Assembly (NCBI GenBank): GCA_030913385.1
Contig: CP133159.1
Span: 2,006,584 to 2,070,583, forward strand
DNA length: 64,000 nt
DNA from: Cytophagaceae bacterium ABcell3
GTDB lineage: Bacteria > Bacteroidota > Bacteroidia > Cytophagales > Cytophagaceae
Direction: 5' to 3'
The translations under genes were made by a program, and so were the position numbers. Every line of letters starts with the position of its first letter. The first letter of the stretch is position 1. The notes beneath the pieces are model-generated. The model was not told where the DNA came from. It saw only the letters and a list, made by a program, of their open reading frames with translations, and did not search any database. This document shows, piece after piece, positions 13,887 to 61,666 of this stretch.

Positions 13887-14315
13887 ATGAATTGGGGATA
13901 TAGTATAGCAGTGGCTTTTGCCTTTTTTATGGCGTTTATCATTTATTTGGTGGTAGGTACTTATAAACAAAACGTTGATTTGGTGTTTGACGATTATTAT
14001 GTTCGTGAGATCAAATTTCAGGAACAGATTGATAAAAGCGTTAATGCCGCTGATAAACCGCTAAAATGGTCTGTAAGAAATGACTCAGTGGTGGTCAAAT
14101 TCCCTGAATCGGTAGACTTCCAGACGCTGAGCGGTGAAATCGTTTTTTACAGGCCCGACCATTCTGGATCTGATATCAAAGAACGCATCTTTCCTGGGAC
14201 TTCTGGCGAGCAGGTATTTCCGGTGTCAAAGTTTAGACAAGGGAAATACCGGTTAAAAACAGATTGGCAGTCTGGCGGGAATAACTATTATGATGAACAG
14301 ATAATTGTTCTTTAA
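13887..14315 (+). CDS. ccoH: FixH/CcoH family protein
   Basis: 142 residues: one N-terminal anchor (GYSIAVAFAFFMAFIIYLVV) followed by a periplasmic beta-sandwich with the family element YKQNVDLVFDDYYVREIKFQEQIDKS. CcoH binds the cbb3 complex and is needed for its stability. Its position between ccoG and a SafE gene matches the usual Bacteroidota order. It is 37 nt after ccoG. Confidence 0.92.
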   Translation: MNWGYSIAVAFAFFMAFIIYLVVGTYKQNVDLVFDDYYVREIKFQEQIDKSVNAADKPLKWSVRNDSVVVKFPESVDFQTLSGEIVFYRPDHSGSDIKERIFPGTSGEQVFPVSKFRQGKYRLKTDWQSGGNNYYDEQIIVL

Positions 14316-14316
14316 T

Positions 14317-15021
14317 ATGGAGACACAAATGTTCATGGCCGCCTTTCTTATCGGCGTGGCTGGTAGCCTGCACTGTATAGGTATGTGCGGGCCTTTGGCT
14401 ATGGCCCTTCCTGTCAGAGATAAGCATATGATTGGCAAAGTCGCTGGTAGGTTGCTCTATAACTTTGGTCGAACGGCCACATACGCATTTATGGGTTTGT
14501 TCTCTGGGCTTATAGGGAAGGTGTTTTATCTGGCAGGTTATCAGCAGGTATTGTCTATTTTATTGGGCGTATTGGTAATTGCTGCTGTTTTATACCCTTC
14601 TTTGGTAAAAGGCAAGATCAATGTTATTGGGTTTGGATTGGTAAATTCAATCAAAAGAGGATTGACAAGGGTATTTAACAATGGCTCTTACCCTGGCTTA
14701 ATGTTCACTGGAGTATTAAATGGTTTTTTGCCCTGTGGGTTGGTTTATATGGCATTGGCAGGAAGTATGGCTACTGGTGGTATGATTTCTGGTAGCTTGT
14801 TCATGGCTGCTTTTGGTCTTGGGACACTGCCAGTGATGATGGCCGTTTCTTTGGGCGGCGCTTTTGCCAGCGAGTCTATAAAATCTAAAATTCGCAAAGC
14901 TGTGCCTGCCATGATGGTGGTTATGGGTTTGGTATTGATACTCCGCGGCCTCAACCTCGGCATCCCTTATGTAAGTCCCGCCGTGGGAGCAGAAGGGCAG
15001 GAGGTGCATAGTTGTCATTGA
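14317..15021 (+). CDS. Sulfite exporter TauE/SafE family protein of the cbb3 operon
   Basis: The ATG at 14317 sits just after the ccoH stop; a second ATG at 14329 has GGAG a few bases upstream and may be the real start. About 234 residues with six helices. The N-terminal signature is GVAGSLHCIGMCGPLAMALP, whose Cys and His suggest metal contact, and a second half-motif is GFLPCGLVYMALAGSMATG. SafE genes closing cbb3 operons are often annotated as CcoH-adjacent proteins and are thought to help copper or haem delivery; a sulfite-export role is doubtful. The last 506 bp recur at 18256-18761. Confidence 0.9.
   Translation: METQMFMAAFLIGVAGSLHCIGMCGPLAMALPVRDKHMIGKVAGRLLYNFGRTATYAFMGLFSGLIGKVFYLAGYQQVLSILLGVLVIAAVLYPSLVKGKINVIGFGLVNSIKRGLTRVFNNGSYPGLMFTGVLNGFLPCGLVYMALAGSMATGGMISGSLFMAAFGLGTLPVMMAVSLGGAFASESIKSKIRKAVPAMMVVMGLVLILRGLNLGIPYVSPAVGAEGQEVHSCH
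14513..15018 (+). repeat. Direct repeat SafE-3', copy 1
   Basis: The 3' two-thirds of the SafE gene, matched by 18256-18761 at a constant offset of 3743 bp with about a dozen substitutions. Confidence 0.95.
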
Positions 15022-15157
15022 AATAGATTCCTTCTTGTTTTGGGCTTATACTTCTATAGTTATAAACTTATCGGAAAATGTTATGGTTTTAAGATTTGGA
15101 AGAAAAATGAGGTTGTTGTTTTTACCCCATTTTCCTTCTTCAAAATCTTGCAATAAT

Positions 15158-17170
15158 TTATTCTAATATGAAGCTTTTACCTTGTTTTTCGTTTTGGTTG
15201 ATTGTGTACAAGTAATATACACCTTTGGGCAAATGCTTGAGATCGATTATGTTTTCTCTTTTATTTGTATTAATAGAAAAGACATTTTGTCCTAATGAGT
15301 TAATTATGAATATTTGATATTCATTTAAATCTTTTCCTGTAATATTTAGGTTAATTGTGCCTGTACTGGGATTGGGGTATAAGGTTAAGCTATAACTAGA
15401 ATCAGCTTTAACCTTTTGTGGTATTTCAACGTCTTTTATTTTTAAGTCGGTATTATAGACTTTAGCTTTTTTATTTTGAGGTGCATCTGAAAAACAATCT
15501 ATTTCTTTACAGTTATTTATATACCTCTGAATACCGGCAGAAAATCCAGGCCTAGCTACAAAGCCAGGGCGAATATTGATTTCATTCCCCGCAGTTAATA
15601 CTGTTGCTCCACTGCTTTGTCCATTTGTTGTGTTTACTAGAATGGTATTGCTTGCAGAATGATTTCCTGATATGGAAGAAGACGTTAGGTTAAGATCATA
15701 GTTTAAATCCTTAAAGGCTCTCAACTGTGAAGTGTAATCTTGGCCATTAATATGAAAGGTGCCTCCCTCGTGGATGTTGAAGTGGAAAAGACTAGTTTCA
15801 TTGTAAAAACAAACGCCAGGGCTATTTTCCAATATTACTTTTCCTGTACTATAAACATTGAAAATATATGATATATCTAACATTTTTTCTTTAACCCTTA
15901 AGTCTCCATGTATATAGAAAGAAATACCGCACTTTTGATCGCAGGCAAAATTTATGTCAGAATTAGAATCAATTATTAGTTCTGCGCCATTTTCAACCCA
16001 TATTTCACAATCAGCGGGAAGGGTTATGTTACAATCTATAGTTAGCTTTGCCCCTGGCCGAACACGGATTTTTTCATAAAGCCTTATGTCAGTATCTAAT
16101 ACCATGTCCTCTTCTATAAAGAGTATGCCATCTGCATAGCAGGTTTCAACAAAATTTTTCATGTTGGTTATTGACAATGTACGATGCATTTCAGCTATAT
16201 TGTCTCCGCTTAAATATGTTCTTCCAGCGTAATAGGGGTCAGCATTATGCATTACATGATTGTTTATTTCCCCTTCTATTTCATTGCAGGGTTTTACCTT
16301 TGTCTCACAATCATTACAATGGTTTATGCATGGGAAAAAACAGTGGCCTATTTCATGAATTAGTGCTTTGTATAAATTAAATGCCTTATCGTCTAGTATT
16401 GTCTGCCATGAGCGAGTGTTCTCTTCATCTTCAAGTAAGCATTGGCCTGCGATATAGCCATTATAATGATCAGTCATGGAAACTCTCGATGATTTATTGA
16501 AGTCATCATAATAAGGTCTTTCAGCACAATCAATACCGTTAATGGTACCATTACAGTATGCTGTTAAACTATCATAAGTATCTTTGTTCTCAGTAAAGAA
16601 AACATTGATACCCGGCTCAATTGATGAATTATTGCTTACTAATGCGTCTAATTGATTAAAATACGAGTTGCTTGATGGGCAGGGAAGTCCGAAACCATTA
16701 TTTTGATTGTTCCATAAATATGGATCTACTATATAATGTTTGGAAACATTAAACCGTATTTTGGTGTCAGGGATATGGTCAGGGCTTCGGCACAAAGATG
16801 GATGGCCGTTCGTAAGGTTTTCCCATTCTCCATCATTGGGTGGAAGGATGTTTTTTAATCTATGATGTAGTCTTCCTATAGCCTCGTCTAAAATATACTG
16901 ATGTTCTGGGTTGCCTTCTTCGAACATCCTAGGATCATTTTCATCATATTGTATGAATATTAAGTTTACCCGCACTTCTTTGTAGGTTGTATTGTTGTTA
17001 GGTTTAAAGAAGCCTAATGGGTAATTGGGATTTATGTTCAATAGCCGTGAGCATAAACCATTAGAGTTTTTTGGCTGTGCCTCTCCCATTCCGCATGTGC
17101 GTGTGTTTTGCGAAATACCAGAAGTTATTATCCCAAAAATGTAGTATAACAGTAGTAATCTAAATTTCAT
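15158..17170 (-). CDS. Secreted metalloprotease-like protein with T9SS type A sorting domain
   Basis: 670 residues. A signal peptide (MKFRLLLLYYIFGIITSGIS) precedes a domain with ALIHEIGHCFFPCINHC, an HExxH zinc motif near residues 268-282; the third ligand spacing does not fit metzincins exactly. Further on is a run of beta-helix-like short strands (LTIDCNITLPADCEIWVENGAE). A three-coathanger-type segment (VLTAGNEINIRPGFVARPGF) follows. The last ~75 residues are a type IX secretion sorting domain: SYSLTLYPNPSTGTINLNITG ... LGQNVFSI ... LPKGVYYLYTI. The product should reach the cell surface or medium. Its substrate is unknown. It lies in a module bracketed by the SafE direct repeat. Confidence 0.8.
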   Translation of the reverse strand: MKFRLLLLYYIFGIITSGISQNTRTCGMGEAQPKNSNGLCSRLLNINPNYPLGFFKPNNNTTYKEVRVNLIFIQYDENDPRMFEEGNPEHQYILDEAIGRLHHRLKNILPPNDGEWENLTNGHPSLCRSPDHIPDTKIRFNVSKHYIVDPYLWNNQNNGFGLPCPSSNSYFNQLDALVSNNSSIEPGINVFFTENKDTYDSLTAYCNGTINGIDCAERPYYDDFNKSSRVSMTDHYNGYIAGQCLLEDEENTRSWQTILDDKAFNLYKALIHEIGHCFFPCINHCNDCETKVKPCNEIEGEINNHVMHNADPYYAGRTYLSGDNIAEMHRTLSITNMKNFVETCYADGILFIEEDMVLDTDIRLYEKIRVRPGAKLTIDCNITLPADCEIWVENGAELIIDSNSDINFACDQKCGISFYIHGDLRVKEKMLDISYIFNVYSTGKVILENSPGVCFYNETSLFHFNIHEGGTFHINGQDYTSQLRAFKDLNYDLNLTSSSISGNHSASNTILVNTTNGQSSGATVLTAGNEINIRPGFVARPGFSAGIQRYINNCKEIDCFSDAPQNKKAKVYNTDLKIKDVEIPQKVKADSSYSLTLYPNPSTGTINLNITGKDLNEYQIFIINSLGQNVFSINTNKRENIIDLKHLPKGVYYLYTINQNEKQGKSFILE

Positions 17171-17265
17171 TATTAGGCATTGGTTTAGTTCTCATATTAT
17201 TTGTTCAAGTTGATTTTTGAATAAACAAAACCTTTATGGTCTTTGTAGTTAGCGAGGTTCAAGCA

Positions 17266-18093
17266 TTATTTCTTTAATACTTCTATTTCCTTCTTCAACT
17301 TCTCATTCTCCTTCTTCATTTCAATCATGTATAGGGTAAGTTCTTCTACTTTTTTTAGAAGGATGATGTCCATGTCGGCAACGTTAATGCCGTTTTCTTC
17401 AACTTCTGCGGCTGATGGAACTTCAGGAAGGTGGCTGTTTTCTTTTATAAATGACTCTACTTCTTCTAATGGTCTCAGTTTATAGTCTTTGGCAAATACA
17501 TAATCTGGGAAGCACCGGCTTTGAGTTAGACGTACCTTTACTTCTGTTGCATATATAGTTCCGTTGACTGATAACCTGGCGTCATCAGGCAAGCAGTCTG
17601 CTCCTTGGTTCATGTTAATTGCAACTTTTCCATCTCCTCTTACATAAAAAGGACTCATACTATTTGCGCCAATGTCCCTAATTTGGAAAAAATAGCTGTT
17701 GCGGGCATTTGCTGCAGTGCCAAATGTTTGTACGTCAACAGTTAAAGCGTTTAATGGATTGCCTCCGCTGCTAGGATGGAATATATGAGATGCGCCTTGT
17801 ACTCGTAGGCCATTTGCTGGAGGTGTGTGATAAGTTCCTATTGATAACCCTCCATTGTAATGGGAAAGTAATTTAGTATTTTGGTTCTGTTGAATTCTCA
17901 TTCCGTGCCTATTAGATTCTGTTACATTTATATGAAATTTAGAATCATTCCTAGGTGCGACATCTATTCCTACATTACCATTTGATGTGCTTCCGATGTT
18001 TTGAGTTCCTCCGGGTACTCTGATCTGGGCGTGTAAGTTAAAAGAAATTAATAAAGTGACTGCAAAAGTTGCAATGAGTAATGTTTTTTTTAT
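17266..18093 (-). CDS. Fibre-like secreted protein with C-terminal coiled coil; non-AUG or damaged start
   Basis: The first ATG in frame is at 17901. Upstream, the frame stays open and encodes a textbook signal peptide (KKTLLIATFAVTLLISF, cleavage after LHA) that begins at an ATA codon at 18093-18091, where ATG would be expected. The mature part begins QIRVPGGTQNIGSTSNGNVGI, like repetitive tail-fibre or cell-wall anchored proteins of Bacteroidota. The C-terminal third has DYVFAKDYKLRPLEEVESF and HLPEVPSAAEVEENGINVADM. It ends in a coiled coil (LLKKVEELTLYMIEMKKENEKLKKE). This end is common in Bacteroidota tail-fibre-domain proteins and probably trimerises. The exact role is unknown. Confidence 0.65.
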   Translation of the reverse strand: MKKTLLIATFAVTLLISFNLHAQIRVPGGTQNIGSTSNGNVGIDVAPRNDSKFHINVTESNRHGMRIQQNQNTKLLSHYNGGLSIGTYHTPPANGLRVQGASHIFHPSSGGNPLNALTVDVQTFGTAANARNSYFFQIRDIGANSMSPFYVRGDGKVAINMNQGADCLPDDARLSVNGTIYATEVKVRLTQSRCFPDYVFAKDYKLRPLEEVESFIKENSHLPEVPSAAEVEENGINVADMDIILLKKVEELTLYMIEMKKENEKLKKEIEVLKK

Positions 18094-18255
18094 TTTTTTT
18101 GTTTGATTTAGTTTATGCGTGCAAACTTAGTGTTTAGTCTTAAGTTGTGCAAGTTTAATTTATTATTTGTGGGTATAAGTCCATGTTATTGTTTTGATTG
18201 TCTATAGACAGTTTTTTTTGTGGGTTTTGTCGGATAGGGTTAGGCTGTTTTAACG

Positions 18256-18764
18256 TAGGGAAGGTGTTTTATCTGGCAGGTTATCAGCAGGTGTTGTCTA
18301 TTTTATTGGGCGTATTGGTAATTGCTGCTGTTTTATACCCTTCTTTGGTAAAAGGCAAGATCAATGTTATTGGGTTTGGATTGGTAAATTCAATCAAAAG
18401 AGGATTGACAAGGGTATTTAACAATGGTTCTTACCCTGGTTTAATGTTCACTGGAATATTAAATGGTTTTTTGCCCTGTGGGTTGGTTTATATGGCTTTG
18501 GCAGGAAGTATGGCTACCGGTGGTATGATTTCTGGTAGCTTGTTCATGGCTGCTTTTGGTCTTGGGACACTGCCAGTGATGATGGCCGTTTCTTTGGGCG
18601 GCGCTTTTGCCAGCGAGTCTATAAAGTCTAAAATTCGCAAAGCCGTCCCTGCCATGATGGTGGTTATGGGTTTGGTATTGATACTCCGCGGCCTCAACCT
18701 GGGCATCCCTTATGTAAGTCCCGCCGTAGGTGCAGAAGGGCAGGAGGTGCATAGTTGTCATTAA
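18256..18764 (+). pseudogene. Truncated second copy of the SafE gene
   Basis: It matches 14513-15018 from TAGGGAAGGTGTTTTATC to the last codons, and ends in its own TAA. The N-terminal part with the GSLHCIGMCGP motif is missing, and no family-like start precedes it, so it should not make a working transporter. By eye about a dozen bases differ and only one changes an amino acid (Val to Ile in the TGVLNGFLPCG stretch). The decay is therefore recent, or the copy was functional elsewhere until it was brought here. Confidence 0.88.
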
Positions 18765-18805: not shown

Positions 18806-18834
18806 AAAGCCATGGATACTTTATCCATGGCTTT
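18806..18834. terminator. Bidirectional terminator
   Basis: Perfect 13-bp stem AAAGCCATGGATA / TATCCATGGCTTT with a 3-nt loop, between the SafE remnant and the convergent COG0523 gene. Confidence 0.85.
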
Positions 18835-18850: not shown

Positions 18851-20032
18851 TTATAAGGGCCAACTATCTTGTAAGAGCTGGTTTTGTTGGATAGCTTTTG
18901 CTTCTTCCTCAGAGCATATACATTTTTGGAGTTCTGAGATTATTTGCTCTTTATTCAAGTCTTGGCCTATAATCACAATTTCTGTCATTCGGTCTCCCCA
19001 AGTTGGGTCAAAGCGTGATAAAATAAAGTCTTCATCTACTTGGTAATATTTCCACTCATCGCGAGGTTTGGATGCCCACCATACACCGGCTTTGTCCGCT
19101 TTCAGTGATCCTCCTGCTTGGCTCCAGGCTATGGCATCATCCGGTCTTGAGGCTAACCAAAACAAGCCTTTGCTTCTGATGATGTTTTCTGGCCAGAGGT
19201 GGTTGACATAGTTCCAGAAACGTTCTGGGTGGAAAGGTGCCCTACTTCGAAATACAAATGACCCTAGTCCGTACTCTTCAGTTTCGGGAGTATGCTCAGT
19301 TTCTAGTTCCTTGATCCTCCCTGCAGAAGATGAAGCCTTTTCGAAGTCAAATAACCCTGTATTTAATATTTCCTTAGGCGGAACTTTGCTCATTTGAGAT
19401 TCTATGATCCTTGCCTCAGGGTTTAGTTTTTTTAGTATAGCTTTTAGTTCTCCTAACTGGTAAGAGGAAACCAGGTCAGTTTTGTTTATAATGATTACAT
19501 TGGCAAATTCGATTTGATCTGTTAGCAAGTTGACGATGGTTCTGTTGTCAGATGGGTCTTCGTTGAGGTCTCTCGTCCATACCGTGTCTCCACTGGTAAA
19601 GTCTTTTGAAAAATTAAACGCATCTACTACTGTTACCAAAGTGTCTAGTGTGCTGAACTTTGTCAGGTCTATACCGGACTCCTCATCTACATAAGAAAAA
19701 GTTTGTGCTACCGGCAAAGGTTCTGAAATCCCTGTAGACTCTATAAGCAGGTAGTCGAACCGCTCTTCTTTGGCCAACTTTTCTACCTCTTTTAAAAGGT
19801 CTTCACGTAGTGTACAGCAAATACAACCATTAGACATCTCGACTAACTTTTCTTCGGTCCTAGAAAGCACGTTTTCGTTCTTTACCAACGCTGCATCCAC
19901 ATTTACTTCGCTCATGTCGTTGACAATGACTGCTACTTTAAGATTTTCTTTGTTATGTAAAATATGGTTTAGCAATGTTGTTTTACCTGCGCCTAAAAAG
20001 CCACTCAACACTGTTACTGGAAGGTTTTTCAT
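18851..20032 (-). CDS. COG0523 (CobW/ZigA-like) GTP-dependent metallochaperone
   Basis: 393 residues. The G1 motif [15 protein letters not shown] is at residues 11-25, the metal-binding CxCC motif (GCICC) is at 69-73, the Walker B region is [15 protein letters not shown], and NKTD is the guanine-specificity motif. The C-terminal CobW_C domain contains [18 protein letters not shown] and [22 protein letters not shown]. This long form is the zinc chaperone type often expressed on zinc starvation, rather than a cobalamin enzyme; no cobalamin genes are nearby. A GCAAC-AAT-GTTGC palindrome lies about 50 nt upstream and may be a Zur-type operator. Confidence 0.88.
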
Positions 20033-44823: not shown

Positions 44824-45698
44824 TGGGTGAAAATTTATCGGTAAAGATAAGAGGTTTGATGTTAAGGATGAACAAAACGGCATTCCTGTAGTGCCGATTT
44901 TTTATCGGCATGGCTAAATTACGAGTAAAAGATAATCCTCAAAACTAACAGCTATAAAACTAGCGGTAAGCTCCACACCCCCTCCAAGTGTTTCAAAAAA
45001 CCTTGGAGGGGTTCAATAACGGTTATAGCTTGATTTTATAAGTCAATTGTAACATCCTTGACGGTAAGTTCTATGATGGTAAGTGCCGAAGAGTAGACGG
45101 AAAGGGTAATTCCATAATCAGTAGCCCGGCAGCGCAATACCTGTCAGCGTCCATAAGACCTGGTCAGACTCTGGCACATATTAGTTAACCCCGAACAATC
45201 AACCAACACAGCTTACCGCAACCAGATTGCCGCGGCATTTTTTCATAAGAAACTAAAGGCTAAAGTTTCATGCAAAGAACTTTCCCGACCACTACCTTAT
45301 GCCTCGCAATGACGGTTATATTTTGGTTTTCTGCTGATTATAACCTTTATAATAACCTGTCATTCCGACGCAGGAGGAATCTGTTAGACTCTAGCACCCC
45401 TGGTAATAAGAGCAGATAAAGGCACTCATGCTGTTACCCCGACAGATGCTTCGTCCCTCAGCATGACAATTATGATTATTAAGGGCAAAGGGTAATAATA
45501 TTTACGTTGGTATCAACACGGGGTAATGAAACAACCACAAGTCCTTATTCAAACAGGCTCCGCAACAGGTGCGGGGATGCAGGTATAGTGTTTGTTTTTA
45601 GAGTTTAAAACACTACCCCAAAAACTAACAGCCAAAATTTACGATAACCTCCCAACTGGTAAGAGCCGAAAAGTTGACAAAAGGATAGGTCAATAATC

Positions 45699-45945
45699 AG
45701 CAGTCCGGTAGCTACTAAGGGCGGGTGGGGACTCTATGGCTGGTGTGGGCATATTGCGGCTTGTGGGGTGCCGGATTTTTAAAAATGCCGCCATAAAATA
45801 CTGCCTTTGACAATGAATCGTCAGTTAAGGCATTTTTCTGGCAGGGAGGGGCTGTGCGTTTAGTGCGTGGCAATATATGCCTTTCAGCCATAGTGTCTTT
45901 TTTTGGTTACCTTTTTTGGACAAGCAAAAAAGGTAAGAAGAAATG
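45699..45945 (+). repeat. Family B repeat, copy 1
   Basis: Starts CAGCAGTCCGGTAGCTAC and ends in a hairpin TTACCTTTTTT / AAAAAAGGTAA. The span 45728-46259 is also repeated at 60716-61247. Confidence 0.85.
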
Positions 45946-46068
45946 GAGAATGAGCTTTAGGAAACATTAGCTCATTAGGTGTATTAATAAGGCGACCAAT
46001 TTAATGATTTGATGATGCTCTAATCGTCAGGTCTGGTACATAACACCCTCAATTACAACTCACCCCAA

Positions 46069-46255
46069 CGTCATTGCGAGGAGAAACGACGAAGCAATCT
46101 CATCGTCAAGTCTAATATTCATTACCCCACAAACAATCAACCTATACTGCTTATCTCAAACAGATTGCCGCGGCATTTTTTCATAAGAAAACTAATGGCT
46201 TATAACTTCAATCCATAGAACTTTACCCACCACTATCTTGCGCCTCGCAATGACG
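46069..46255 (+). repeat. Family A inverted-end element (MITE-like)
   Basis: 187 bp bounded by CGTCATTGCGAGG and CCTCGCAATGACG, with inner GAAGCAATCT and AGATTGC arms. No ORF. Confidence 0.75.
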
Positions 46256-46491
46256 GTTAAATTCTGATTTTCTGCTAATTAAAACCTTAATGTTAGACGC
46301 TGGCACCTGCCTAATATTTGGCAATTCACATTCCTGCTTTACCCCAACAGCCCCCCGCAACAGGTGCGGGGAGACAGCTATAGTGTTGATTTTAAAGCTT
46401 AAAAACACCATCCCCAAAAGGTACACCCAAAGCCAGCGTAACCTTCAAACCGGTAAGAGCCGAATAGTAGACAAAAGAATAACTCAATAAT

Positions 46492-46738
46492 CAGCAGTCC
46501 GGTAGCTACTAAGGGCGGGCGGGGACTCTATGGCTGGTGTGGGCATATTGCGGCTTGTGGGGTGCCGGATTTTTAAAAATGCAGCCATTAAAAACTGCCT
46601 TTGACAATGAATCGTCAGTTAAGGCATTTTTCTGGCAGGGAGGGGTTGTGCGTTTAGCGCGTGGCAATATGCCTTTCAGCCATAGTGTCTTTTTTTGGTT
46701 ACCTTTTTTGGACAAGCAAAAAAGGTAAGAAGAAATGG
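46492..46738 (+). repeat. Family B repeat, copy 2
   Basis: As copy 1, about 90 percent identical by eye. Confidence 0.82.
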
Positions 46739-47298
46739 AGAATGAGCCTTAGGTAACATTAGCTCCTTAAATTTAATAATAAGGGGATCAGTTTAATGAT
46801 TTGATGATGCTCTAATCGTCAGGTCTGGTATTTGACACCCTCTATTACAACTCACCCCCAACGTCATTGCGAGGAGGAAGGACGAAGCAATTTAATTGTC
46901 AGGTCTGGTATTATACTGTCTGAACCGGGATTCGAAAGATGGAAGGATAGGCAGGATTTAAGGATAGATGTTATTACAACCTATAAGATAATAACACCCC
47001 CACAATCACCAAATTACCCCCAACGTCATCGGTAGGAGGCACGACGAAGCAATCTAGTCGTCAGGTCCAGTATTTGACACCCTAACAATCAACCAATACA
47101 GCTTACCGGCACCGTTTAATATTTGGCAATTCACATTCCTGCTTTACCCCAACAGCCCCCCGCAACAGGTGCGGGGAGACAGCTATAGTGTTGATTTTAA
47201 AGCTTAAAAACACCATCCCCAAAAGCTACACCCAAAGCCAGCGATAACCTCCAAACCGGTAAGATCCGAAAAGTAGACTAAAAGAATAACTCAATAAT

Positions 47299-47545
47299 CA
47301 GCAGTCCGGTAGCTACTAAGGGCGGGCGGGGACTCTATGGCTGGTGTGGGCATATTGCGGCTTGTGGGGTGCCGGACTTTTAAAAATGCCGCCATAAAAT
47401 ACTGCCCTTGACAATGAATCGTCAGTTAAGGCATTTTTTTGGCAGGGAGGGACTGTGCGTTTAGTGCGTGGCAATATGCCTTTCAGCCATAGTGTCTTTT
47501 TTTGGTTACCTTTTTTGGACAAGCAAAAAAGGTAAGGAAAAATGG
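47299..47545 (+). repeat. Family B repeat, copy 3
   Basis: As copy 1; minor differences (for example GGAAAAATGG at the end). Confidence 0.82.
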
Positions 47546-48089
47546 ACAATGAGCTTTAGGTGACATTAGCTCATAAGTTTATTATTAGGGCGATCAATTT
47601 AATGATTTGATGATGCTCTCATCGTCAGGTCTAACAATATTCCCCCGAACAATCAACCAACACAGCTTACCGCAACATTTTTTCATAAGAAACTAAAGGC
47701 TAAAGTTTCATGCAAAGAACTTTCCCGACCACTACCTTATGCCTCGCAATGACGGTTATATTTTGGTTTTCTGCTGATTATAACCTTTATAATAACCTGT
47801 CATTCCGACGCAGGAGGAATCTGTTAGACTCTAGCACCCTTGGTAATAAGAGCAGATAAAGGCACTCATGCTGTTACCCCGACAGATGCTTCGTCCCTCA
47901 GCATGACAATTATGATTATTAAGGGCAAAGGGTAATAATATTTACGTTGGTATCAACACGGGGTAATGAAACAACCACAAGTCCTTATTCAAACAGGCTC
48001 CGCAACAGGTGCGGGGATGCAGGTATAGTGTTTGTTTTTAGAGTTTAAAACACTACCCCAAAAACGGGTCACCGTATTTTTCTGGGGAT

Positions 48090-49010
48090 TTAAGCAAAAA
48101 GCTTAGAGAGCCTGAACAAGAAGAACCTTGTATCTACAACGCCTCTTAAGTTTGCCCTGAAGAGCTTTATTTTTGAATTAAAAGATTCCGCATTTGCATT
48201 GGTAGATCTATTGTCAAAGAAGTTTAGAATATTGCTCATATGGTTGCTTACTGTATTTGCTACCGTTAAAAATTCCTTGGTTCCCATCTCATGAGTTTTA
48301 TTGATCCATTCAGCAAACTTTTTTTCAGCGGATATTTTTGTGTTGCTTTCATATATTAGCCTAAACCCAAGAACATGGTCATAAGCTTTTTTGAGGTCTG
48401 GATAATTTTCAAAAGCTATGTTGGCTCTCTGCTCTTGGCTTTGAGTCCAATCAGCTTTCTTTTTGGCAAAGACATACCTGCAGCGGGCCAAAAGTTGCTT
48501 TGGGGTGTCCCCATTGGGCAATAAGGGTGCTTTATACCTAACGCCATTCTTTTTGGCAGCTTCGATAGCCTTGTTTTCCATATCTAGTTCAACCCATCTT
48601 TGATTGACCCTTATATGTTGTAGAGCCTCCAGGGCCAGCCTTACTACATGAAAGCGGTCTGTAACCAAATTTGCCATGGGGAAACATGTTCTTGCGGATG
48701 ACTCCATGTTTTTTGCCATGTCAAGGGTTACTTCCTTTACTTTATTCCTTTGTTCCAGAGGGATTTTCTCTAGGACTTGTATGATATTTGCCGACAATGT
48801 GCCTTTTACAGAAGCTACCAAAGAGCCTTTTTTGCCTCTCCCGTTTTTATTGGTAATAAAAGTGTACAACTCTCCTTTTGACAGTGCAACTTCGTCTATA
48901 CTAAGATGCTCTCCGATATTGTCCGGAAAGACCAAATAGTCCTCTGCATGCTCTTTTTGTTCCCACTGCTTAAACCCACTGCTTTTCTTCTTATAGTGCC
49001 TCCTCAACAA
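48090..49010 (-). CDS. IS transposase, catalytic part (ISL3-like DDE)
   Basis: 306 residues: LSIDEVALSKGELYTF (first catalytic Asp), LVTDRFHVVRLALEALQHI (second Asp) and NANAESFNSKIKLFRANLRG (Glu). The frame is open upstream of the first ATG for about 20 codons (EDTIGNIGSYYEVKGDLL), matching the natural join to the N-terminal ORF. Full activity would need a +1 (or -2) frameshift from 49042-49428, or the element is inactivated by one inserted base. Confidence 0.85.
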   Translation of the reverse strand: MLRRHYKKKSSGFKQWEQKEHAEDYLVFPDNIGEHLSIDEVALSKGELYTFITNKNGRGKKGSLVASVKGTLSANIIQVLEKIPLEQRNKVKEVTLDMAKNMESSARTCFPMANLVTDRFHVVRLALEALQHIRVNQRWVELDMENKAIEAAKKNGVRYKAPLLPNGDTPKQLLARCRYVFAKKKADWTQSQEQRANIAFENYPDLKKAYDHVLGFRLIYESNTKISAEKKFAEWINKTHEMGTKEFLTVANTVSNHMSNILNFFDNRSTNANAESFNSKIKLFRANLRGVVDTRFFLFRLSKLFA

Positions 49011-49041
49011 ATCCCCTTTGACCTCATAATAGCTGCCAATG

Positions 49042-49428
49042 TTACCAATGGTATCTTCGCGGGTCTCGACCTGTACCTTTTAAAAAATCTGAAAGCTCTT
49101 GAGTGATTTTAGAGCCTTCAGCTACAAATGAATAGTCATTGTAAACTATTTTGTTCTTGCATGTTTTATGCCTCCACCTTCGTCGCTTAAATTCAAGATA
49201 AACGGCTTTTCCCCTGATAGGGAAATCTTGAACAATTTTAGGTTCATAAAAACCTTTAGACTCGTACTCTTCAGGTTTATGCTTTCCTAATAGCCGGTTC
49301 TGCTCAATGAGGTTGATTTTATAAAAAGCTCTTTTGCTGTTCAGGTCACATAGCTCTATTACAGCTTCTATTTCAAAAAAATCTAGTATGCCTTCCGGCA
49401 AAAAAGGGGCAATAATGCTTTCTTTCAT
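49042..49428 (-). CDS. IS transposase N-terminal region
   Basis: 128 residues ahead of the catalytic ORF: MKESIIAPFLPEGILDFFEI, FEIEAVIELCDLNSKRAFYK and EFKRRRWRHKTCKNKIVY. This DNA-binding part resembles the separate N-terminal ORF of ISAon1-type transposases. Its end, LKGTGRDPRRYHW, runs out of frame at CGAGACCCGCGAAGA, where the catalytic frame continues. Confidence 0.8.
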   Translation of the reverse strand: MKESIIAPFLPEGILDFFEIEAVIELCDLNSKRAFYKINLIEQNRLLGKHKPEEYESKGFYEPKIVQDFPIRGKAVYLEFKRRRWRHKTCKNKIVYNDYSFVAEGSKITQELSDFLKGTGRDPRRYHW

Positions 49429-49563
49429 CTTGCCTTAAAATTAACAAATCAAACCAAGACTCCCCAACTTTTACGTGTGAGCCCCAAAAACTAACAGCCA
49501 AAATTTACGATAACCTCCCAACTGGTAAGAGCCGAAAAGTAGACAAAAGGATAGGTCAATAAT

Positions 49564-49810
49564 CAGCAGTCCGGTAGCTACTAAGGGCGGGTGGGAACTC
49601 TATGGCTGGCGTGGGCATATTGCGGCTCGTGCGGTGCCGGATTTTTAAAAATGCCGCCATAAAGAACTGCATCTGACAATAAATTGTCAGTTAAGGCATT
49701 TTTTTGGCAGGGAGGGACTGTGCGTTTAGTGCGTGGCAATATGCCTTTCAGCCATAGTGTCTTTTTTTGGTTACCTTTTTTGGACAAGCAAAAAAGGTAA
49801 GGAAAAATGG
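49564..49810 (+). repeat. Family B repeat, copy 4
   Basis: Directly right of the IS; the IS sits in the sequence just before this copy. Confidence 0.82.
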
Positions 49811-50090
49811 ACAATGAGCTTTAGGTGACATTAGCTCATAAGTTTATTATTAGGGCGATCAATTTAATGATTTGATGATGCTCTCATCGTCAGGTCTAAC
49901 AATATTCCCCCGAACAATCAACCAACACAGCTTACCGCAACATTTTTTCATAAGAAACTAAAGGCTAAAGTTTCATGCAAAGAACTTTCCCGACCACTAC
50001 CTTATGCCTCGCAATGACGGTTACATTTTTGGTTTTCTGCTAATTATAATTTTAAGGTATAACAAAAAATCTTAATAAAACCACTATTCA

Positions 50091-50760
50091 TTCCATTGTC
50101 CCACCACGTCATCGGTAGGAGGAGCGACGAAGCAATCTCATCGTCAGGTCTAGTATCATTGTCTCACAACAATCAACCAATACAGCTTACCGCAACCAGA
50201 TTGCCGCGGCATTTTTTCATAAGAAACTAAAGGCTAAAGTTTCATGCAAAGAACTTTCCCGACCACTACCTTATGCCTCGCAATGACGGTTACATTTTTG
50301 GTTTTCTGCTAATTATAATTTTAAGGTATAACAAAAAATCTTAATAAAACCACTATTCATTCCATTACCCACCACGTCATTGCGAGGAGGAAGGACGAAG
50401 CAATCTCATCGTCAGGTCTAGTATCATTGTCTCACAACAATCAACCAATACAGCTTACCGCAACCAGATTGCCGCGGCATTTTTTCATAAGAAACTAAAG
50501 GCTAAAGTTTCATGCAAAGAACTTTCCCGACCACTACCTTATGCCTCGCAATGACGGTTACATTTTTGGTTTTCTGCTAATTATAATTTTAAGGTATAAC
50601 AAAAAATCTTAATAAAACCACTATTCATTCCATTGTCCCACCACGTCATCGGTAGGAGGAGCGACGAAGCAATCTCATCGTCAGGTCTGGTATCATTGTC
50701 TCACAAAAATCAACCAATACAGCTTACCGCAACCAGATTGCCGCGGCATTGTTCATAAGA
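50091..50760 (+). repeat. Tandem array of ~268-bp units containing family A
   Basis: Unit starts at 50091, 50360 and 50628 (TTCCATT...CCACCACG). Each holds a family A element and AATTATAATTTTAAGG. A partial earlier unit begins near 49.87 kb. Confidence 0.85.
50374..50556 (+). repeat. Family A element within the tandem array
   Basis: Bounded by CGTCATTGCGAGG / CCTCGCAATGACG, 183 bp. Confidence 0.75.
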
Positions 50761-50947
50761 AACTAAAGGCTAAAGTTTCAGACAAAGAACTTTGGTAAGC
50801 TCCATTCCCTCTCCAAGTGTTTAAAAACCTTGGAGTGGTTCCTTAACGGTTATCGCTTGATTTTATAAGTCAATTGCAACATCTTTAGACCTATTTTGTA
50901 CATGACTACTCATCACTTTAATTAATTTCTGCTAACCCCTCATAGTG

Positions 50948-59166: not shown

Positions 59167-59978
59167 CTTTTTAAGGCTGTTCCTTTCAGTGGTAAACTTA
59201 TTAGTTTCTGTAAATTATTCAAAAGAATATATCTACACTTTTTTGCATTACTTTTAAGTGTTAAATATCCAGATATTTACAAAAGTAGCATGGAACCCTA
59301 TTTGTAAAAGAGATTTAGGATCTATTTAAGAATGAAACGACAATTCTTACAAGCCGGTTACATGTCATGACAAAGAAATATAGGGGGTATCCCGAGGAAC
59401 AAGTGGGCTGTTAGTAACTAGCACCTACCTAACATTTGGCCACTCACATTCCTGCTTTATCCCAACAGCCCCCGATGATACGAGGTATGAATGTAGAGCC
59501 GATTTTTTATCGGCATGAACTACATTGTTTGTTTTCTACCTTTGCCCCCCCCCCCCACGTCATCGGTAGGAGGAAACGACGAAGCAATCTCATCGTCAGG
59601 TCTAGTATGACACCCTAACAATCAACCAACACTGCTTATCTCAAAAAGATTGCCGCGGCATTTTTTCATAAGAAAACTAATGGCTTATAACTTCAATCCA
59701 TAGAACTTTACCCACCACTATCTTGCGCCTCGCAATGACGGTTAAATTCTGATTTTCTGCTAATTAAAACCTTAATGTTAGACGCTGGCACCTGCCTAAT
59801 ATTTGGCAATTCACATTCCTGCTTTACCCCAACAGCCCCCCGCAACAGGTGCGGGGAGACAGCTATAGTGTTGATTTTAAAGCTTAAAAACACCATCCCC
59901 AAAAGCTACACCCAAAGCCAGCGATAACCTCCAAACCGGTAAGAGCCGAATAGTAGACAAAAGAATAACTCAATAATA

Positions 59979-60225
59979 AGCAGTCCGGTAGCTGCTAAGG
60001 GCGGGCGGGGACTCTATGGCTGGTGTGGGCATATTGCGGCTTGTGGGCTGCCGGATTTTTAAAAATGCCGCCATTAAAAACTGCCCTTGACAATGAATCG
60101 TCAGTTAAGGCATTTTTCTGGCAGGGAGGGGTTGTGCGTTTAGCGCGTGGCAATATGCCTTTCAGCCATAGTGTCTTTTTTGGGTTACCTTTTTTGGACA
60201 AGCAAAAAAGGTAAGAAGAAATGGA
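59979..60225 (+). repeat. Family B repeat, copy 5
   Basis: Close to copy 2, with a CTGCTAAGG start variant. Confidence 0.82.
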
Positions 60226-60684
60226 GAATGAGCCTTAGGTAACATTAGCTCATTAGGTTTATTAATAAAGGATCAATTTAATGATTTGATGATGCTCTAA
60301 TCGTCAGGTCTGGTATTTGACACCCTAACAATCAACCAACACTGCTTATCTCAAAAAGATTGCCGCGGCATTTTTTCATAAGAAACAAAAGGATGATTCG
60401 ATGATATGATGATGCAATGATATATAACCTGTCATCCCGAGGCACGAGGGATCTGTTAGACGCTGGCACCTGCCTTCGTAATAGGTACAGATAAAGACAC
60501 TCATGCTGTTATCCAAGCAGATCCTTCCTGCGTCAGGACGACAAGAAGAAGTGTCAAGGGCAGAGGGTAATACGGCATTGGATACAAATTGAGAAAAGCA
60601 GAGTCTCAAAAACTAACAACTAAAGCCAGCGATAACTCCAAACTGGTAAGAGCCGAAAAGTAGACTAAAGGAATAACTTTATAA

Positions 60685-60934
60685 TCAGCAACCCGGTAGC
60701 TACTAAGGGCGGGCAGGGACTCTATGGCTGGTGTGGGCATATTGCGGCTTGTGGGGTGCCGGATTTTTAAAAATGCCGCCATAAAATACTGCCTTTGACA
60801 ATGAATCGTCAGTTAAGGCATTTTTCTGGCAGGGAGGGGCTGTGCGTTTAGTGCGTGGCAATATATGCCTTTCAGCCATAGTGTCTTTTTTTGGTTACCT
60901 TTTTTGGACAAGCAAAAAAGGTAAGAAGAAATGG
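60685..60934 (+). repeat. Family B repeat, copy 6
   Basis: With its right flank it forms a ~530-bp near-identical match to copy 1 and flank (45728-46259), offset 14,988. Confidence 0.85.
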
Positions 60935-61056
60935 AGAATGAGCTTTAGGAAACATTAGCTCATTAGGTGTATTAATAAGGCGACCAATTTAATGATTTGA
61001 TGATGCTCTAATCGTCAGGTCTGGTACATAACACCCTCAATTACAACTCACCCCAA

Positions 61057-61243
61057 CGTCATTGCGAGGAGAAACGACGAAGCAATCTCATCGTCAAGTC
61101 TAATATTCATTACCCCACAAACAATCAACCTATACTGCTTATCTCAAACAGATTGCCGCGGCATTTTTTCATAAGAAAACTAATGGCTTATAACTTCAAT
61201 CCATAGAACTTTACCCACCACTATCTTGCGCCTCGCAATGACG
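61057..61243 (+). repeat. Family A element in cluster 2
   Basis: Same as 46069-46255: ends CGTCATTGCGAGG / CCTCGCAATGACG. Confidence 0.78.
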
Positions 61244-61666
61244 GTTAAGTTTTGACTTTCTGCTAGTTAGAACCTTAGTAATAACCTGTCATCCCACACC
61301 GATAGCTATCGGGAGAGGGATTTGTCAGACACTAGCACTTAGGAAATAAAATAACAAAAGCTGCCAAAAGTCCTTTACCCAAACAGATCCTTCCTTCGTC
61401 AGGATGACTAGAAGAGTGTCAAGGGCAGGGGTTAATATTCTTATCCTAAAAATTAAAAGCCAGAACAAGTGGTAAGCTCCATCCTCCTCCAAGTGGTTAA
61501 CAACCCTTGGAGGGGTTTCTATGTGCAAAAACACCCTTGGTTGCTCGAATTTTGTTTGTAAGTATTTCAATTTTAAAAGATTATAAAATTATATACAAAT
61601 GCTCAAACAATAGGTTTAGTTGTAAGTTTAATGCGGTATAATCAACTAATTTCAAACCGGATAAAT

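Follow-up and report, generated by a model that had tools for sequence, protein, structure and literature searches.

A type IX secretion cargo module between two diverged copies of a safE-type gene end in Cytophagaceae bacterium ABcell3

The safE-type gene end, its second copy and the module between them

The window analysed here is a 64,000-nucleotide stretch (positions 2006584-2070583) of the 5.115-Mb single-contig genome of Cytophagaceae bacterium ABcell3 (CP133159.1), in which a gene run ordered ccoNO-ccoP-ccoG-fixH-safE ends in a safE-type gene whose 3' end recurs on the far side of a short module encoding a cargo protein of the type IX secretion system (T9SS). Positions at this locus are those of the window; positions elsewhere are those of the contig. 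The intact gene (14317..15021, plus strand) begins at an ATG at 14317, in a frame open from a TTG at 14305, and matches the DsbD_2 family (PF13386, E 8.3e-46); this match and the position after ccoNO, ccoP, ccoG and fixH bear out the SafE label given by an earlier, sequence-only reading of this DNA. Repeat search and alignment place copy 1 of a direct repeat at 14513-15019, the 3' end of the intact gene, and copy 2 at 18256-18762, also on the plus strand, a displaced 3' end that survives as a remnant without about the first 66 codons. The copies are 507 bp long, offset by 3743, 97.6% identical and free of indels, a match for which chance is excluded by far (BLAST E printed as 0.0). Homology runs as far as the stop codon's first base, and the stops differ (TGA/TAA at 15020). 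Both ends of the insert are thus formed by a direct repeat of resident sequence, as a single crossover would leave them. The sequence-only reading, which gave 506 bp, about a dozen differing bases, one amino-acid change and a 3.2-kb module, was off by no more than one or two bases; where it has the module lying within a duplicated gene, a truer description is that the module adjoins the stop codon of the intact gene and the displaced gene end sits beyond it.

The two copies differ at 12 positions (14550, 14685, 14697, 14713, 14754, 14775, 14883, 14901, 14904, 14958, 14985 and 14988), and 11 of these differences are synonymous, the sole nonsynonymous one being V to I at 14713. An exact count over 168 codons (S=121, N=383) gives dS=0.097 and dN=0.0026, hence a dN/dS of 0.027, far from the value near 1 that would have spoken against the sequence-only reading of two alleles that diverged first and were joined later. 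We find no clustering of the 12 differences (largest gap 135 bp, P 0.31). In simulations in which the remnant evolves neutrally and the intact gene takes silent changes only, 6.5-7.2 of 12 differences are expected to be nonsynonymous, and one or none is obtained in 0.06-0.12% of runs (P 0.0006-0.0012). Because a neutral remnant made in place is rejected at this level (~0.1% of simulations), we read the copies as alleles that diverged before they were joined; most simply, both would have been under selection during that divergence, and their joining would be recent. The single nonsynonymous change sets a 95% bound on the divergence younger than the joining, at most ~13% of the silent divergence.

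The module (15020..18255) is 3.2 kb long and holds two minus-strand genes only, neither of them an integrase by Pfam, NCBIfam or PHROGs. Its GC content of 35.3% (15022-18255), against 42.2% for the operon, ranks at the 2.2nd percentile among windows of 3.2 kb taken across a 1.264-Mb sample of the genome. The first gene (15158..17170, minus strand) encodes a 670-aa protein whose C-terminus matches Por_Secre_tail (E 3.9e-11, 43.5 bits vs a cut-off of 27) and TIGR04183 (36.9 bits vs a cut-off of 23); a type A sorting domain above its curated cut-off marks the protein as T9SS cargo, in agreement with the earlier label. The companion label, metalloprotease-like (metzincin-type), is tentative, based on a HEIGH (HEXXH) motif read by eye, Peptidase_M10 being matched below threshold (E 0.087, 13.1 bits vs a cut-off of 24), and a structure model of the N-terminal 350 aa was not used (pLDDT 31). 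The protein finds a match at 0.001 in 146 of 195 relatives; among the matches listed nearly all concern the sorting domain, and two among them, both from one genome, reach the HEXXH-bearing part (29 and 30%).

The second gene (17266..18096, minus strand; from the list of open reading frames, ORFs) was called fibre-like, a name that stands without a family match in Pfam (0.001), NCBIfam (0.01) or PHROGs (0.01). At E 1e-10 or better, relatives of the C-terminal half of its protein occur in 128 of the 390 genomes searched from the order. Its frame is open to ~18096 and has, by eye, a signal-peptide-like start without ATG, GTG or TTG, the first ATG lying at 17901; this could reflect an unusual start codon, slippage of the frame within an A-run or an error of sequencing. 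A search of viral contigs confirmed no relative of either module protein.

Beyond the remnant, the gap before the far-side neighbour, a cobW-family gene (18851..20032, minus strand; PF02492, E 9.2e-58), contains a terminator-like hairpin (18806..18834, plus strand; fold z -2.70), which probably marks the former end of the safE operon. After copy 1, a search for a terminator found folding not better than in shuffled sequences (z -1.20).

The family group comprises 19 genomes including this one, which is also the only member of its genus group. A safE match is present in 16 of the 19, and the other 15 have a single match apiece, with identity reaching at most 48%. The order ccoG, fixH, safE is kept at all 15 loci, with ccoP and ccoNO upstream in 14, the contig of the 15th beginning within ccoG. 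No match to the module proteins at E 1e-5 lies beside safE in the stretches fetched from these 15 relatives, which reach past safE by 1.8 kb (one), 3.0-5.1 kb (three) or 9.0-9.8 kb (11). That absence and the unusual GC content lend partial support to the earlier claim that the module arrived by recombination. The relatives' loci (16, 249.5 kb) contain no direct repeat of at least 60 bp at a spacing of at least 300, a weak control in that the loci were chosen around safE. A scan of named genomes with safE returned a single match (45% identity), on PXAS01000152.1, titled PVC group bacterium; its ccoNO-ccoP-ccoG-safE run is near that of the present family (ccoNO 67%, safE 45%), and the label of this metagenome-assembled genome may be wrong.

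Similar brackets elsewhere in the genome

Similar anatomy recurs in this genome, which the sequence-only reading had missed; all data on recurrence come from this one genome. A scan for low-copy direct repeats in the contiguous 1.264-Mb sample (1406584-2670583, window included), from which higher-copy repeats had been filtered earlier, gave 22 rows. Ten are at least 100 bp long; the 12 shorter rows were dropped before counting, together with 1809607, in which the repeated sequence is that of a T9SS array, and R4b, merged as a second repeat at R4. We find that five of the eight remaining brackets (R1, R2, R3, R4 and the safE locus) enclose a T9SS sorting domain, and that at R1, R3, R4a and the safE locus a gene end is duplicated with mostly silent differences.

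At R1 (1524441-1529044) the repeat, 517 bp at 96.7% identity, straddles two genes, one of the sodium/hydrogen-exchanger/TrkA-N type (kefB-like), whose end it contains, and one for an AI-2E transporter, whose start it contains. The former is completed by the left copy and the latter by the right copy; silent and nonsynonymous differences stand at 10:3 plus 1:0, with a dS of 0.28. R2 (1572479-1575469) is non-coding. The 124-bp repeat of R3 (1795999-1797465) lies near the end of an epimerase/DUF2062 gene (5:3, dS 0.19), and the 133-bp repeat R4a of R4 (1809335-1822559) includes the end of a histidine kinase gene, its displaced copy adjoining an SMR transporter gene (7:1, dS 0.52). The other three brackets enclose no T9SS domain: R5, a confirmed duplication of tRNA-Ala in two copies; R6, a Y1 transposase locus; and 2160704-2161296. 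Pfam confirmed the names first given by eye to the kefB-like exchanger, AI-2E transporter, epimerase/DUF2062, histidine kinase, SMR transporter and SDR genes, and the Y1 transposase at R4 and R6; it did not confirm a Y1 transposase for an ORF of R1.

Random intervals of equal length enclose T9SS domains in at least five of eight cases with P 2.9e-5, and in at least four of seven, leaving out the safE locus, with P 2.9e-4; the latter is the fairer figure, as knowledge of the safE locus preceded the choice of the 100-bp cut and of the T9SS class. A second, chosen set of 60 stretches around T9SS hits (1.07 Mb, 79 other hits, three of them below the family cut-off) gave 16 low-copy rows, of which three enclose a T9SS hit and one, N8, is a plausible bracket. 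N8, staggered with N7 (3365933-3369783), has the layout A-X-B-A'-Y-B', where Y is a T9SS-type gene, and looks like two alternative cassettes of one site combined. Rows 3075464 and N9 were rejected as repeats of paralogous T9SS genes themselves, N4, N11 and 3939350 as repeats within or of T9SS-type genes, and N6 as an IS3-like locus (by eye). The set also includes N5, whose ORF was briefly named a RelE-like toxin, a name withdrawn in the absence of a Pfam match, N10, two short rows (70 and 128 bp) and three intergenic-repeat rows at 534766-540785. N1, outside the contiguous sample, repeats an SDR gene (11.5:8.5 silent to nonsynonymous, with stops and gaps) around a lipoprotein-like gene with no T9SS domain, and looks like an older, decayed scar.

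Several further repeats were observed. The interior of R4 is a tandem array (1809607-1819961) of ~2.6-kb units with near-identical T9SS-sorted genes, two of which are each broken into two ORFs. At 1244324-1246345, ~680-bp repeats (85%) bracket two small minus-strand ORFs (111 and 76 aa), the longer without a Pfam match. Within the window, 44996-50886 and 59409-61419 hold a dense, partly tandem intergenic repeat family with units of ~40-300 bp; related intergenic repeats occur in both orientations at many sites at 2.12-2.25 Mb of the genome, and ~11% of the 1.264-Mb sample lies under at least three repeat hits.

Possible routes of acquisition

We consider it somewhat probable that the safE locus is the scar of an additive homologous integration of a relative's DNA. 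In this account, DNA of a diverged relative would have carried its own safE-type gene end joined to the two-gene T9SS-cargo module. Its recombination with the safE gene already present, for which one crossover involving a circle or circularised fragment is the likeliest form, would have left one intact safE, then the module, then the second 3' end as a 507-bp remnant on the far side. We favour a single crossover because a circle bearing part of a gene would leave just this map of intact gene, cargo and displaced 3' end; the donor, its circular state and the succession of events are likewise inferred. The selected payload would presumably be the T9SS cargo, and the safE gene stays whole.

Several observations weigh against this account. 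No donor, circle or empty site is seen in the genomes compared, and, as the module lacks genes for replication or recombination, its joining to part of safE goes unexplained. R1 is a mosaic, the last 180 bp of its repeat having none of the 17 differences (P 0.0007, for a region picked post hoc), and this counts against the account because a plain crossover does not predict it. R2, being non-coding, permits no test of silent bias, and the 5:3 ratio of R3 is weak taken alone. The T9SS link is not repeated in the chosen stretches, where one plausible bracket is found among 79 hits; in the contiguous sample, 9 of 34 T9SS hits lie inside brackets, five of these in R4. The enrichment therefore goes without a correspondingly high frequency per T9SS gene and may in part be a one-region effect.

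Homology-facilitated illegitimate recombination, in which one end of a linear fragment pairs with safE and the other joins by chance within the gene, is a possible though doubtful alternative to integration by a single crossover. It would also yield silent-biased copies and the same final map, with no need of a circle, and it has been proposed for the stepwise addition of type VI secretion system (T6SS) modules in Vibrio cholerae (PMC5361080). Against it, true homology-facilitated events made up 4 of 60 in an Escherichia coli test and gave deletions, not duplications (PMC3240628).

Site-specific integration of a gene-restoring element of the e14/icd kind, which would have brought its own safE end and later lost its integrase, seems improbable to us. 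It fits the map, in that the end brought by the element would complete the gene and push the former one aside, with differences that are mostly silent; however, the module's two genes include no integrase (one acting from elsewhere was not searched for), and R1 duplicates 517 bp across two genes, unlike the pattern left by such an element. We give equally little credence to a duplication of the safE end in place, with the module inserted later or together with it and drift thereafter. This requires no safE donor, but the deficit of nonsynonymous changes strongly disfavours it unless the remnant is under selection, and when both copies are neutral one or no nonsynonymous change arises in 0/2008, 0/2070 and 0/2054 simulations in the respective settings. 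Least credible is an assembly artefact or two-strain mixture: a mixed culture could place alleles side by side, but the genome is one contig with a listed completeness of 100 and contamination of 1, the remnant adjoins unique DNA within the gene, and a single contaminating strain is unlikely because dS differs so much between scars, the safE value of 0.10 standing beside those of R1, R3 and R4a.

Accessory genes that travel without integrases or transposons account for much of bacterial variation, and their route of insertion is usually guessed. A two-allele scar, such as additive integration would leave at safE, records both the divergence of the donor, in silent changes, and the time since insertion, in amino-acid changes and stops of the remnant. 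Tentatively, T9SS cargo genes in this lineage may spread as integrase-free cassettes through homology to neighbouring housekeeping genes, added rather than swapped, with a datable allelic scar left by every gain, and this could be a general route of gene addition through which Bacteroidota assemble their secreted and surface proteins; if the pattern holds in other Bacteroidota, gains of T9SS cargo could be counted and dated. The recurrence with T9SS cargo is the part worth following.

Comparison with known systems

Gene-restoring elements such as e14 in icd supply a new 3' end and displace the old one. The safE locus resembles e14/icd in pairing an intact gene with a displaced old end, copy 1 being a candidate for the element's own sequence; it differs in that the module has no integrase and that the sister scar R1 spans two genes.

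The closest experimental parallel is an E. coli lacZ assay in which single-crossover integration left 56 of 60 clones with part of a gene duplicated, the duplications measuring 109-950 bp in the 14 clones that were sequenced (PMC3240628). As there, foreign DNA would have been added beside a chromosomal gene with partial duplication, and 507 bp falls within the same range; the assay used a laboratory plasmid with an identical gene end, whereas the present alleles are natural and diverged and the cargo is of T9SS type. T6SS effector-immunity modules of V. cholerae are likewise secreted-protein modules inserted stepwise at a single place, with homology on one side and a displaced older gene, but whole immunity genes are displaced there, in contrast to the 3' end of a housekeeping gene and T9SS-type cargo here (PMC5361080). 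Small variable segments of bacterial genomes, for which homology-assisted illegitimate recombination has been proposed, are likewise short non-mobile DNA between conserved genes; their repeats are mostly <30 bp, whereas those described here are 124-517 bp, mostly coding and allelic (PMC2884548). Merodiploids formed by transformation in pneumococcus, with tandem duplications of ~100 to 900 kb, are of a different scale from the safE scar (PMC3784515).

A search of the open-licence literature found no work joining type IX secretion and homology-facilitated illegitimate recombination, and a broader search, judged by titles and abstract openings, found no description of the pattern. The safE locus appears to be a new case of a known process, its allelic reading well supported and its route a matter of reconstruction; beside an integration process that is already known, the recurring T9SS-cargo scars are the new part.

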